NCBI RefSeq assembly: GCF_900107645.1
Contig: NZ_FNQN01000007.1
Location: forward strand, 62,001 to 126,000
Reading direction: 5' to 3'
DNA from: Desulfuromusa kysingii
GTDB taxonomy: Bacteria; Desulfobacterota; Desulfuromonadia; Desulfuromonadales; Geopsychrobacteraceae
DNA length: 64,000 bases
Shown: one piece after another, positions 29,791-35,855 of the stretch
How positions within the stretch are numbered: position 1 is the first letter of the stretch
Layout: every line of letters begins with the position of its first letter
Made by a program: the position numbers and the translations under genes
The notes under the pieces: generated by a model
Seen by the model: the letters and a program-made list of their open reading frames with translations, nothing else
Databases searched by the model: none
Told to the model about the DNA's origin: nothing

Positions 29791-32079
29791 TCAGAATTTG
29801 CCAAACTCATCATCATCCAGCTTAATTTCAAGCTTTCCTGCTGGGACTTCCATCGCTCCCCAACCTGATTGTGTCGTATGAGATGGCACAGCAGCAGGTG
29901 TTGTTTTCAATTGTGGTTTCACCTTTGGAGCAGGAGACACGTTTTGAGATATGCCGGTGAGGGTAAAACGGCTAAGCATATGCTTAAGGTGTGCCGATTG
30001 ACTTGATAGTTCTTCAGCCGACGCAGCAGATTCTTCTGCGGTCGCCGTGCTTTGTTGCACCGCGGAATCAATCTGCCCTAAACCTTGATTGATTTGTGAG
30101 ATACCCTGAGCTTGCTCATTGCTGGCAACAGCGATTTCCGCAACCAGGTCCGTGACTTTAGTGATTGAAGTCACAATGCCGTCCAGAGCTTCTGATGTTT
30201 TTTCAGCTATTTCAGCTCCATTTTTAGTTTTTTCAACCGATCCTTCAATTAATTGGGCAGTTTCTTCAGCAGCCTTAGCGCTACGGGCAGCAAGGTTGCG
30301 CACCTCCTCAGCGACGACCGCAAAACCTTTACCATGTTGACCGGCACGGGCGGCCTCAACCGCAGCATTCAGGGCCAAGAGATTGGTCTGAAAAGCGATC
30401 TCATCAATAACCTTGATGATCTTGCTGATATTCTGACCGGCAACATTGATTTCAGTCATGGCAGCCACCATCTCACCCATCCGCTCACTCCCGGCCCTGG
30501 CTGCATCCTGGGCACCCGTTGCAAGGGTACTAGCGGCACCAGCATTTTCTGCACTTTGCTGCGTTTGACTGCCGATTTCATTCATTGAGCTACTGATTTC
30601 TTCAAGTGAGGCCGCCGATTCAGTCGCCCCTTGAGATAGAGTCTGCGCTGTATCGGAAACTTGTACACTGCCGGAATCAATCTGATCAGAGGCCCTGTGA
30701 ACTTCACCCAATACTTCATTCAAATTAACGACCATGTTCTGAAAGGCTTTCCCCATGGTATCCTGATCAGAGGCAACCAAAACTTGAACTTGCAGATTCC
30801 CTTGAGCAATCTGAGTCGCCTCTTCAGCTTTGATTTTCAAACTGTCGGTCATTTTGTTGATCGCATCTGACAAGACGCCCACCTCATCTTTGCTTTGATA
30901 GTCAATAGATTCTGACAAATCCCCCAAAGCAATCCGTTGTGCTGCATCTACTGCCATCTGTAACGGTCCGATGACAATCCGGGTCACATAAAAAATAGTT
31001 GCGAACAGAATCATAACCAGAACCAATGCACCAGCTCCGAAACTCCAGTTGATTGAACTCATACTTTTTGTCCCAGACTCGTGAACTCCAGCGATTAAGG
31101 ACGTCAATTTGGACATATCGTAAACAAGAGCCGCGACACCCACAGTCTTTCCTGAAAAATCAGTAATGGGGAAGGTCGACACAAATTGGTTACCGACGGC
31201 TTTCTGACTTTCTTGGTTACGGCCGGAATCCAGCAGAGCCGATGTTAACACCGAATCGGTGATATTTTTGTCAGTTGATGAGGTGAAAACATATTTATCA
31301 TCGAGGACCGGATTCTTCTTTGGATCCTGTAGTTTTGTGGCAATAGGTAATAGATCCGACAGCATATACACGGCTATCTGATAATCATTATTGACATGAT
31401 TCGCTTCAAGGACATCTCCAAAAGAGACCAACACTTCACAAGATCCAAGATGATCACCGGAGTGATTTGAAACAGCTGAGAGGCCGCGAATCGCAAATCC
31501 ACTTCGTCCAATTTCAATACCGCTGAGAGGCTTATGATCACCATCATTGATCAACAATACGGTTTTACGAAACGTTGTAAGATCATCAGAGATATCGATC
31601 TTCTTCCCGTTTCGCACTGTCTGCCAACCATCACGCCACAAGCGCACTAAACTACGTCCGTTAGGAGTATGGAAATGGACATTTAATGTGGGGTTACCTG
31701 TTTGTTTTTTATATCCAGCAATATAGGGGGCCATCACTTTGCGCAATTGTTCTCGTGCCATTTGCATTTCGTGATCGTTCTCATCATCCATGTTTCCCAG
31801 TCCAGCAAGTCGATAAGCCGTTTGTACGTCCGGTATCTCCGAGAAGATTGAAGCCATATCAAGCGCTTCTTTTCCTGACTCATCAATTCCCCTGTAGATG
31901 GTCTCTTTACGGGCTTTTGCGGTAGTGGACAAAACCTCATTTGCGTAACTGACAAAAGACTCTTCCTGTTGAGTAACGAGTCCTTTCACTGTCATATTTA
32001 CGGCAATAAGAGCAATGACCACTGACACAACAACCAGGCAGGTTATCGGCAAAATAAATTTACTGCGTATTCTCATCAT
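29791..32079 (-). CDS. Methyl-accepting chemotaxis protein with Cache-type sensor domain
   Basis: 762-aa receptor. A first transmembrane helix (about 8-30) and a second (about 345-367, [21 protein letters not shown]) enclose a 310-residue periplasmic domain, resembling a double Cache sensor ([28 protein letters not shown]). A HAMP domain (about 370-420) follows, then the signalling domain with the hairpin tip [20 protein letters not shown]. The C-terminus ends DDDEFGKF without a recognisable CheR-binding NWETF pentapeptide. GGAGG precedes two consecutive ATGs; the second (32076) is better spaced. No other chemotaxis genes adjoin it, and the ligand is unknown. Confidence 0.9.
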
Positions 32080-32479: not shown

Positions 32480-33133
32480 TCAAACGGGTCGCCGGACATG
32501 AATTTCCCGTGCGAGGGTGTCATCTACAGCAAATTGAGACTGTCCGACTTTAAAAATATAACTAGGGAATTTTTGCACCAAAAGAAGCTGACTCCCTGGT
32601 AGAACCCCCATACTCATGAGTTTCTGCATTTTTTTGTCGTCGCTTGCGGAGAGGTAGGCGATTTCTCCGGACTCTCCGGACTTCAGCTCTGTCAGCGCAA
32701 CAATTCCAGGCTCTCCCTGCTGGCGGGCTTTAATGCAACATTCACCCGGTGGAATGGGGTTTCCATGGGGACAAGTCGTGGGATGATTCAATAAGGTGCA
32801 CAACTTCGTATCAACTCCCTGACGCAGGAGATGTTCAAATTCACAGGCTTGTTCATTGCCTTCATCACCAGAAATGCCAAGAATATCCATGGTTAAGCGT
32901 TCCGCCAGACGGTGTCGACGCACGGTCATCTGCGCATCTGGACGACCTTCTCTGCGGAGATAGACACGATCACCCTTGATTTCGACATAGGAGCGCTGGA
33001 TTAATTCCACAAGTTCTTCAGTATCACGATTAAGATTTAGACTCGTCAGGAGACAACCGACATTATCCCCCTCAACTGTCATCACCCAGAGGGATTCAAG
33101 TATTTCTTCAGCGTTTTGTGAAAGTCTTGCCAT
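32480..33133 (-). CDS. DtxR-family metal-dependent regulator with C-terminal FeoA domain
   Basis: 217 aa. An N-terminal winged-helix-like region (1-65) is shorter and more divergent than in DtxR. The dimerisation/metal domain is clear: VRRHRLAERL (H74), ACEFEH (C97, E100, H101) and CPHGNPIP (121-128). Compared with DtxR, ligand H98 is Asn (N93) and M10 aligns with Glu. An FeoA/SH3-like domain fills 145-213 (ELKSGESGEIAYL, MSMGVLPGSQLLLVQK). Its gene is last in fur-feoB-zinc ribbon-dtxR, starting 2 bases after the previous stop. It probably senses Fe(II) or Mn(II) and either regulates feo genes or acts as the FeoA partner of FeoB. Family placement is firm; DNA binding is uncertain. Confidence 0.82.
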   Translation of the reverse strand: MARLSQNAEEILESLWVMTVEGDNVGCLLTSLNLNRDTEELVELIQRSYVEIKGDRVYLRREGRPDAQMTVRRHRLAERLTMDILGISGDEGNEQACEFEHLLRQGVDTKLCTLLNHPTTCPHGNPIPPGECCIKARQQGEPGIVALTELKSGESGEIAYLSASDDKKMQKLMSMGVLPGSQLLLVQKFPSYIFKVGQSQFAVDDTLAREIHVRRPV

Positions 33134-33135
33134 GG

Positions 33136-33318
33136 CTATTTATCCTTTTCTTTCTTTGACAAAAAACGACCTAAAAACTTTCCTGGGGCGGGATTAGCAT
33201 AACCACAATAAGGGCAATGAATTTTGCGACAACCGCCAAAACACTGGCCACAATTCGCCTGTCCTTCAGGTACGCCGACCACGTCATCAATGTTTTTGTG
33301 ACAAAAACCACAAATCAC
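33136..33318 (-). CDS. Small zinc-ribbon protein of the feo operon
   Basis: 60 aa. Starts at GTG, overlapping the feoB stop (GTGA). Eight of its first 38 residues are Cys or His able to bind metal: C3, C6, C23, C26, C30, H34, C35 and C38, arranged as CxxC, CxxC and CPYC. That suits one or two zinc-ribbon knuckles or an Fe(II)-binding site. The tail is basic (GKFLGRFLSKKEKDK). Position between feoB and the DtxR/FeoA gene suggests a role in Fe(II) uptake, possibly in place of FeoC, which is absent. No known function is claimed. Confidence 0.65.
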   Translation of the reverse strand: MICGFCHKNIDDVVGVPEGQANCGQCFGGCRKIHCPYCGYANPAPGKFLGRFLSKKEKDK

Positions 33319-35294: not shown

Positions 35295-35744
35295 TCAACG
35301 TTGTGAAGGATTCACAGATGAATCAGAGCACTTAGAACATAGGCCGTAGAGCTCATGACGGTGCCTTTCAATTTTAAAATTAAACTTGGCGGCAACTTCT
35401 TGCTGAAGTTGCTCGATTTGTGGATTCGTAAACTCAACAATCAGACCGCAGTTGGTACAAACCAAATGATCATGATGCTGATCAACATGCGAAGGCTCAT
35501 AACGCATCTGCCCATCGCCAAAATCAACTTCAATAGCAATTCCACATTCAGCAAATAATTTGAGAGTGCGGTGGACTGTTGCATAACCAATCTGAGGATG
35601 TTTTTTTCGCAGTTTTAAATAGAGATCTTCGGTAGAATAATGAGATTTTGAGTTCAGGAAGTCCTCAAGAATCATCATCCTCTGGTTGGTATTTTTTAAC
35701 CCTCGACGGCGTACATAATCTTTAAAAATAGAGACATTGTCCAT
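35295..35744 (-). CDS. fur: Fur-family metal-responsive regulator
   Basis: 149 aa. Winged helix (about 10-75; NTNQRMMILEDFL, YATVHRTLKLFAECGIA), then the dimerisation domain. HHDH (90-93) provides regulatory-site ligands and two CxxC pairs, C96/C99 and C136/C139, form the structural zinc site. Family members include Fur, Zur and PerR; the operon with feoB makes iron the likely signal. GGAGG 8 bases before the ATG at 35744 is preferred to an in-frame ATG 12 codons earlier. A Fur-box-like dyad overlaps the region 25-39 bases before the start, consistent with self-control. Confidence 0.88.
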   Translation of the reverse strand: MDNVSIFKDYVRRRGLKNTNQRMMILEDFLNSKSHYSTEDLYLKLRKKHPQIGYATVHRTLKLFAECGIAIEVDFGDGQMRYEPSHVDQHHDHLVCTNCGLIVEFTNPQIEQLQQEVAAKFNFKIERHRHELYGLCSKCSDSSVNPSQR

Positions 35745-35768
35745 CTTGACCACCTCCGCAGTGAGTGT

Positions 35769-35783
35769 TGAAAATGACATTCA
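35769..35783. promoter_or_regulatory. Possible Fur box upstream of fur-feoB
   Basis: TGAAAATGACATTCA matches the 7-1-7 Fur consensus TGATAATNATTATCA at 10 of 14 positions, as counted by eye. It lies 25-39 bases before the fur start codon. This is a weak pattern match. Confidence 0.35.
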
Positions 35784-35855
35784 GAAGCTAAAGGAAGAGC
35801 TGAGAAAGATCAAGAAGAAACTGGTAAACTGCGGAATCAGCAGGTTAAAAAGGCA

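Follow-up and report, generated by a model that had tools for sequence, protein, structure and literature searches.

A DtxR-like/FeoA fusion protein that pairs with one type of FeoB and lacks a recognisable DNA-binding helix-turn-helix

The window, meaning here the whole 64,000-nucleotide stretch of the Desulfuromusa kysingii genome that was analysed (contig NZ_FNQN01000007.1, positions 62,001 to 126,000), carries a feo operon that includes a gene for a DtxR-like protein fused to FeoA. What sets this protein apart is the subfamily to which it belongs, whose members appear to have kept the primary metal site of DtxR, lost the helix-turn-helix (HTH), gained a set of cysteine and histidine residues and end in a FeoA domain. 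It is very probable that the fusion fills the place of FeoA for its FeoB and, on a reading that is judged probable overall, it would be a FeoA subunit mounted on a DtxR metal sensor that no longer binds DNA, through which Fe(II) would gate a distinct type of FeoB. The sequence-only reading of this gene had left it open whether the protein serves FeoB, regulates, or does both; service to FeoB is now favoured, whereas regulation by DNA binding is disfavoured.

On the minus strand the genes run in the order fur, feoB, a small gene for a CxxC protein and the fusion gene (Table 1). The frames of feoB and the CxxC gene overlap by 4 bp, and 2 bp separate the end of the latter from the fusion gene. 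The next large ORF downstream on this strand (29791-32079), chemoreceptor-like by reading alone, lies 400 bp from the fusion gene, a distance that makes it reasonable to regard the fusion gene as the last of the operon, as had originally been proposed; a terminator scan found none between the two. Genes of this type are presumably those that go by the name ideR in Geobacter. At the opposite end of the operon, fur probably starts at codon 13 of its longest ORF, where the start is preceded by GGAGGTG. This longest frame (35295-35780 in the window) is likely to begin 12 codons too early, as its initial codons overlap the Fur box and the ribosome-binding site precedes codon 13.

Table 1. Positions in the window of the genes, protein domains and regulatory site of the operon, with the basis of each assignment
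Feature	Position	Strand	Basis
DtxR-like/FeoA fusion protein, 217 aa	32480..33133	-	ORF, Pfam, AlphaFold2, homologous loci
FeoA (SH3-like) domain, residues 144-217	32483..32704	-	PF04023, 51.2 bits; match to 3e19_B
DtxR metal-binding/dimerisation domain, residues 62-135	32729..32950	-	PF02742, ligand counts, fold match
C112, H117, C121, C132, C133 set, residues 112-133	32735..32800	-	99/99 aligned members each
Short winged-helix domain without recognisable DNA-binding HTH, residues 1-61	32951..33133	-	PF01325 absent
60-aa CxxC protein, seven Cys	33136..33318	-	Between feoB and the fusion gene
FeoB, fusion-associated type, 652 aa	33315..35273	-	TIGR00437, 438 bits; FeoB tree
Fur regulator	35295..35744	-	Pfam FUR, 125.9 bits; alignment
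Fur box, delta-proteobacterial type, 3 mismatches	35768..35784		Before the operon

Pfam recognises the DtxR metal-binding domain PF02742 at residues 62-128 of the fusion (77.2 bits) and the FeoA domain PF04023 at residues 146-214 (cut-off 23 bits), and yields no match to the DtxR HTH family PF01325 up to an E-value of 1 anywhere in the 217 residues. The best NCBIfam matches are DtxR and MntR, both far under their cut-offs, and the fusion is the only protein in the D. kysingii genome with PF02742 above cut-off. Its length and the C-terminal position of its FeoA domain distinguish it from a small free-standing FeoA. Membership of the FeoC family was ruled out, there being no Pfam match to PF09012 up to an E-value of 1.

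The AlphaFold2 model of the fusion (mean pLDDT 88.5) has an N-terminal domain with helices at residues 6-21, 29-32 and 39-46 and a wing of two strands (50-53 and 56-59), followed by the DtxR helical domain and then a C-terminal beta domain. A structure search matched the first two domains to DtxR, IdeR and MntR structures (8pw0_A: Z 15.9, rmsd 2.0 over 126 residues; 1g3t_B: Z 15.6, rmsd 2.5 over 130), such that the predicted winged-helix fold is kept but shortened; that the winged helix is short had already been read from the sequence. The C-terminus matches the FeoA structure 3e19_B (Z 13.6, rmsd 1.4 over 73).

The HTH is degenerate across the whole subfamily, and not in the D. kysingii protein alone. 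A scan of genome contigs found 33 fusion loci, mostly in Desulfuromonadales and relatives of Geobacter, together with one Nitrospirae and one Dehalococcoidales MAG. The proteins of 31 of these loci align over their whole length, and of the other two L042 is a broken copy and L043 only a fragment. An artefact or a frameshifted HTH in a single genome was considered and rejected, as the same N-terminus is present in these 31. Further loci came from PF02742 searches of 395 genomes of the phylum, 201 from the phylum to which the Dehalococcoidales genome belongs and 100 from that of the Nitrospirae one. The loci are not a random sample, 30 being the best PF02742 scorers of the 395 genomes and 60 being chosen by hand from among the further matches listed; the 30 loci from the Dehalococcoidales phylum were likewise the best scorers, a choice that favours canonical proteins, and the absence of the subfamily there therefore says nothing about that phylum.

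The DtxR proteins split into two kinds, one with a cysteine motif (resembling C-x8-C-P-H-G-x-x-I-P-x-G-x-C-C) and a FeoA domain but no HTH, the other with an HTH but no such motif, referred to here as canonical. With the HTH threshold set at an E-value of 1e-3, the entries examined comprised 128 with the motif and no HTH (124 distinct, as four contigs appear twice: L026/L075, L033/L074, L027/L076 and L032/L079), none with both and 50 with an HTH only, L134-L137 having been omitted as repeats. Five entries had neither (L042, L043, L112, L190 and L195), of which L190 and L195 are member-like and fail the motif. The motif-bearing entries nearest the threshold were L092 (E 0.001) and L189 (0.0016), and 24 of the 128 gave some HTH score at an E-value of 1 or below, against 7e-12 for the weakest canonical entry. 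Homologs that join intact ligands to a canonical HTH were sought within the subfamily, and none of the 128 fell under 1e-3. The HTH model behind this split was built from 17 canonical entries and is circular for those 17, whereas the Pfam PF01325 results and the entries from the Dehalococcoidales phylum are free of that circularity. PF01325 matches one of 51 non-redundant members (E 0.009) compared with 17 of 18 canonical proteins, while Pfam finds the FeoA domain in 51/51 and 10/18, respectively. In a tree made by a quick method from the 134 columns left after removal of the HTH and cysteine positions, 17 of the 18 canonical proteins share one starred branch, the eighteenth, L112, being a long-branched permease fusion.

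The character of the N-terminal domain has changed along with its signature. Over the HTH segment (residues 22-48), mean net charge is -3.3 in the 51 members and +4.6 in the 18 canonical proteins, with positive values in 1/51 and 16/18; over the whole N-terminal domain the means are -7.3 and +0.5 (positive in 0/51 and 8/18). Mean conservation of the HTH segment is 1.43 bits in the subfamily versus 2.62 bits in the canonical proteins, and is also lower for helix 1 (2.45 versus 2.91) and the wing (1.9 versus 2.56), but is higher for the metal domain (2.91 versus 2.57) and the FeoA domain (2.52 versus 2.25), with the caveat that the smaller canonical set (18 against 51) by itself raises the canonical scores; L042, L043, L059 and L119 were omitted from the conservation set. 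These features make loss of DNA binding by the subfamily likely, though not proven, because the winged-helix fold remains. DNA recognition by IdeR works through indirect readout (PMC8464063, in part), and with its winged helix kept the fusion could therefore still contact DNA in a non-classical way.

By contrast with the HTH, the primary metal site appears to have been retained. In what we take to be the DtxR numbering (Met10, H79, E83, H98, C102, E105 and H106), fusion residues H74, E78, C97, E100 and H101 align with H79, E83, C102, E105 and H106 of DtxR and IdeR, in agreement with the earlier claim that the site is kept at H74, C97, E100 and H101. Across 99 aligned subfamily members E10, E78, C97, E100 and H101 are always present, and H74 and E13 occur in 98 each; within the set of 51, E10 and W16 are invariant. 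E10 stands at the position of Met10 and N93 at that of His98, where the 99 members have Glu (54), Asn (29), Asp (12), His (3) or Lys (1), the first three of these accounting for 95. Both substitutions had been singled out in the sequence-only reading, and both are indeed there, but they fail as a distinguishing mark. The 18 canonical relatives, 17 of which carry an HTH, have Asp (16) or Asn (2) at the Met10 position, and only 3/18 have His at the His98 position and only 5/18 retain E83. Since acids also occupy these positions in canonical relatives whose HTH is intact, the changes are ordinary for the DtxR superfamily, and altered ligands were rejected as the key feature of the fusion. In the alignment with IdeR, the stretch that presumably supplies the ancillary site with its third-domain ligands lies opposite a gap in the fusion.

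More specific to the subfamily is the set of residues that follows, in a pattern like CxLLxHPxxCPHGxxIPxGxCC at residues 112-133. C112, H117, C121, C132 and C133 are each found in all 99 aligned members; the four cysteines belonged to the motif by which these members were selected, and H117 did not. Among the canonical relatives C121 is common (16/18), as is C132 (14/18), and H117 is rare (2/18), so that C112 and C133 are peculiar to the subfamily, as H117 very nearly is. The set could possibly form an extra metal or Fe-S site. This set, the CxxC partner gene and the Fur box are all absent from the earlier account of the locus. Some canonical DtxR proteins of the phylum (e.g. L128, L130 and L108) have a cysteine segment of their own (CPRGG...C...) after the metal domain.

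The pairing of the fusion with one type of FeoB is well supported. A FeoB gene adjoins the fusion gene, on the same strand and within 450 bp on either side, in 114 of the 128 subfamily entries as against 6 of the 50 canonical ones; in L088 and L105 it lies downstream of the fusion gene. As the subfamily looks like a single clade, these 128 co-occurrences are not independent of one another. Fourteen subfamily entries have no adjacent FeoB: five are at contig ends (L017, L052, L059, L188 and L196), L025 is counted here because its FeoB is fragmented, and eight have room but no FeoB nearby (L106, L119, L122, L168-L171 and L180). In L025 (2341-4992) both fur and feoB are broken into many short frames, the fusion gene being intact; the breaks are perhaps sequencing errors in this MAG contig. 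L168-L171 and L180 come from genomes of the Nitrospirae phylum in which the fusion gene lies away from feoB, and the ORF before the fusion gene in L168, L170 and L180 looks, by reading, like ribonuclease HII.

The complement to this pairing is the lack of any other FeoA. A search of the stretches around the 128 subfamily entries, whose flanks vary in length and can be as short as 2 bp upstream, yielded no ORF for a free FeoA; applied to canonical loci it does detect free FeoAs, among them those of three of the six loci that have an adjacent FeoB. The D. kysingii operon holds no other FeoA, in agreement with the original remark that no separate FeoA is present, and the two free FeoAs of this genome each lie directly beside another FeoB. 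A free FeoA located elsewhere in the D. kysingii genome and pairing with the fusion-linked FeoB was looked for, not found, and rejected on the same grounds. In a FeoB tree, also made by a quick method, a branch marked 100* splits 37 fusion-linked FeoBs from six that are not linked to a fusion, among them the two other FeoBs of D. kysingii, which have free FeoAs.

A census of the class extended this picture to 58 genomes of at least 95% completeness, in which 116 matches to FeoA were assigned by location to the FeoBs listed (threshold E 1e-25 for FeoB; one fragment entry, from G718, omitted). Frame length (200 aa) was the sole criterion separating fusions from free FeoAs, and the type of FeoB was judged by the reach of the alignment. 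Fifty-five of the 63 long FeoA frames lie beside fusion-type FeoB, three beside classical FeoB and five are unlinked, while the 53 short frames lie beside classical FeoB in 47 cases, beside FeoBs counted as fusion-type in three and are unlinked in three. Thirty genomes have only fusion-type FeoB; short FeoA is missing from 27 of these, and exactly one FeoA domain is present in 26. The three genomes with short FeoA are G717, whose 61-aa frame may come from a split fusion, together with G718 and G728, where free FeoAs lie near FeoBs only 40% identical to the fusion-type FeoB of D. kysingii. Only classical FeoB is present in five genomes, two of them without a long FeoA frame and three with one that is unlinked. 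Eight genomes in which the fusion is unlinked were inspected: four (G016, G612, G602 and G665) possess one FeoB (at E 1e-30) and one FeoA domain, which is that of the fusion; G638 and G688 have extra classical FeoBs with free FeoAs of their own; G210 combines three FeoBs with four FeoA domains; and contig ends interrupt the arrangement in G314.

Transcription of the operon is associated with a different regulator. Using the delta-proteobacterial consensus from PMC545781 (in part), a Fur box with four or fewer mismatches is found near the start of fur in 25 of the 27 loci that bear this gene, L034 (6 mismatches) and L041 (5) being those without a good box, and between 0 and 7 of 100 letter shuffles match as well at each locus. 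Matches across the window number 2 versus 4.06 expected and are not above chance, and so the call rests on position and conservation. In a 12-sequence promoter alignment, within which L023 is poorly aligned, the Fur box is the only fully invariant block. A CTTGAT-like stretch upstream of it is nearly invariant in the same alignment and may be a promoter element; no second operator was seen near the box in these 12 sequences, which is weak evidence. As fur2-feoB1-R and feoB1-R operons with such boxes are listed in PMC545781 (in part), the operon type and its control by Fur were already known.

In the mechanism judged probable, Fur would govern the iron-dependent transcription of the operon through this box, and the fusion would act at the protein level, its FeoA domain docking on FeoB as is thought to occur with free FeoA. 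Fe(II) would bind the retained DtxR site (E10, C97, E100 and H101, with H74 and E78 nearby) and shift the FeoA domain, as metal shifts the third domain of IdeR, with the effect that import by FeoB would be adjusted to the iron of the cytosol. A second metal or Fe-S site would probably come from the extra Cys/His set together with the CxxC protein. The FeoA fold is of the same kind as the SH3-like third domain of IdeR. Because the fusion has a gap where IdeR presumably carries its third-domain ligands, gating may differ from that of IdeR. In IdeR it is chiefly the ancillary-site metal that ties the third domain to the rest of the protein, and this domain moves with metal binding (PMC10317159, in part), and in a natural FeoA-FeoB fusion FeoA stabilises GTP-bound FeoB (PMC8980893, in part). 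That the cargo is iron is an assumption, since the substrate of Geobacter FeoB-1 is called unassigned (PMC2700814, in part). A more elaborate version, in which a repressor would have turned into a subunit of a widespread type of FeoB and would provide iron feedback at the pump, acting as a regulator that resembles FeoA and FeoC and sharing a second, cysteine-rich metal or Fe-S site with the CxxC partner while Fur acts on the DNA, is put forward tentatively, and is slightly more doubtful than not.

The association with FeoB, which is the strongest of the results, would also be expected if the DtxR part of the fusion were a scaffold only, with structural metal sites and no sensing of iron. Variation at position 93 and the gap at what we take to be the third-domain ligand stretch of IdeR fit this alternative. 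However, the ligands of the primary site are invariant in 99/99 members while the segment that would read DNA has drifted, and a bare scaffold, not obviously in need of an invariant ligand set, is for that reason disfavoured and considered unlikely. Less credible again is an iron-dependent, IdeR-like transcriptional repressor that also carries FeoA, although the DtxR fold with its winged helix, the DtxR and MntR matches in NCBIfam, far under cut-off as they are, and the status of the fusion as the only PF02742 protein above cut-off in its genome would all suit such a role. A canonical DtxR protein with FeoA domains, PgMntR, does bind DNA (PMC4805248, in part), and the 'R' of the feoB1-R operons is taken to mean regulator (PMC545781, in part). 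This repressor is rendered improbable by the absence of the HTH model from 50 of 51 members, the acidic HTH segment and the lack of a conserved recognition helix, by an upstream region whose only fully invariant block is the Fur box, and by the distribution of the fusion, which follows the type of FeoB and the need for a FeoA.

The conserved Cys/His set and the seven-cysteine partner gene accompanying 55 of the 128 subfamily entries could alternatively be viewed as the carriers of an iron or Fe-S chaperone, the fusion receiving iron from FeoB. As the partner was not found by pattern in the other 73 entries, some of which are misses or contig ends, and no enzyme or carrier lies above cut-off among the family matches listed, a chaperone is the least plausible of these alternatives and very improbable.

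The preferred reading, that of a sensor-bearing FeoA subunit of FeoB, places the fusion between several known systems. It resembles DtxR and IdeR in the fold of its first two domains, in the matched ligands C102, E105 and H106 and in the ancillary H79 and E83, but differs in having no recognisable HTH, an acidic winged helix, Glu in place of Met10, the extra Cys/His set, the FeoA domain and the link to FeoB. With free-standing FeoA it shares the PF04023 domain, the FeoA fold and pairing with a FeoB, except that its FeoA sits behind a DtxR metal-sensor module and that fusion-type FeoB, unlike classical FeoB, usually has no free FeoA gene adjacent. PgMntR, which has twin FeoA domains and a metal site with features of both Mn and Fe sites, has the same DtxR plus FeoA architecture but binds promoter DNA, whereas the fusion has lost the HTH (PMC4805248, in part). 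Canonical DtxR proteins beside FeoB in L155 and L156 apparently have two FeoA domains by reading, like PgMntR. The likeness to gamma-proteobacterial FeoC, a winged-helix protein of the feo operon with no shown DNA binding (PMC7762939, in part), is an analogy only; the fusion has no FeoC match, is of another size and has a metal domain and a fused FeoA.

By layout, Fur box and possession of FeoB-1 without feoA, the feoB1-R operons of Geobacter and Desulfuromonas are of the same type (PMC545781, in part). FeoB-1 lies apart from the characterised FeoBs, and feoA genes are named only for FeoB-2, in the available portion of PMC2700814. What these portions of PMC545781 and PMC2700814 say of feoB1-R describes no HTH loss, FeoA role or cysteine set, and a literature search with most subscription papers outside its coverage found no description of the subfamily as FeoA or as HTH-less. 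The action of FeoA on FeoB has been called enigmatic (PMC8980893, in part) and a direct interaction of the two is said not to have been shown (PMC7762939, in part). As the subfamily joins FeoA to a well-understood Fe(II) switch, gating of FeoB by iron becomes directly testable. The fusion may be the missing FeoA for FeoB-1 and, if the preferred reading is true, the cell may sense iron at the pump itself instead of at the gene; a caution would also follow, that Geobacter-type 'iron-dependent repressor' genes like that of the fusion need not encode DNA-binding regulators.

The small gene between feoB and the fusion gene is a candidate third component. The protein of the window has its cysteines at C3, C6, C23, C26, C30, C35 and C38 (CxxC...CxxC...C...CPxCGY) and no Pfam or NCBIfam match above cut-off, there being a weak match to the Pfam double zinc ribbon under cut-off; its structure model is of uncertain fold (mean pLDDT 75.6, pTM 0.53). 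The seven-cysteine pattern occurs in 0/50 canonical entries and in at least the 55 subfamily entries mentioned above, a lower bound since phmmer also finds the gene in L025, L027 and L032. One Nitrospirae and one Dehalococcoidales genome are among the entries that have it. The seven cysteines are invariant in 36 aligned sequences by construction, because the pattern requires them. L112 (2388-3944, plus strand) is another example of a transporter linked to a DtxR sensor: it combines a metal-type ABC permease with a DtxR metal domain and has no recognisable HTH. G386:C116 has a frame of similar length.
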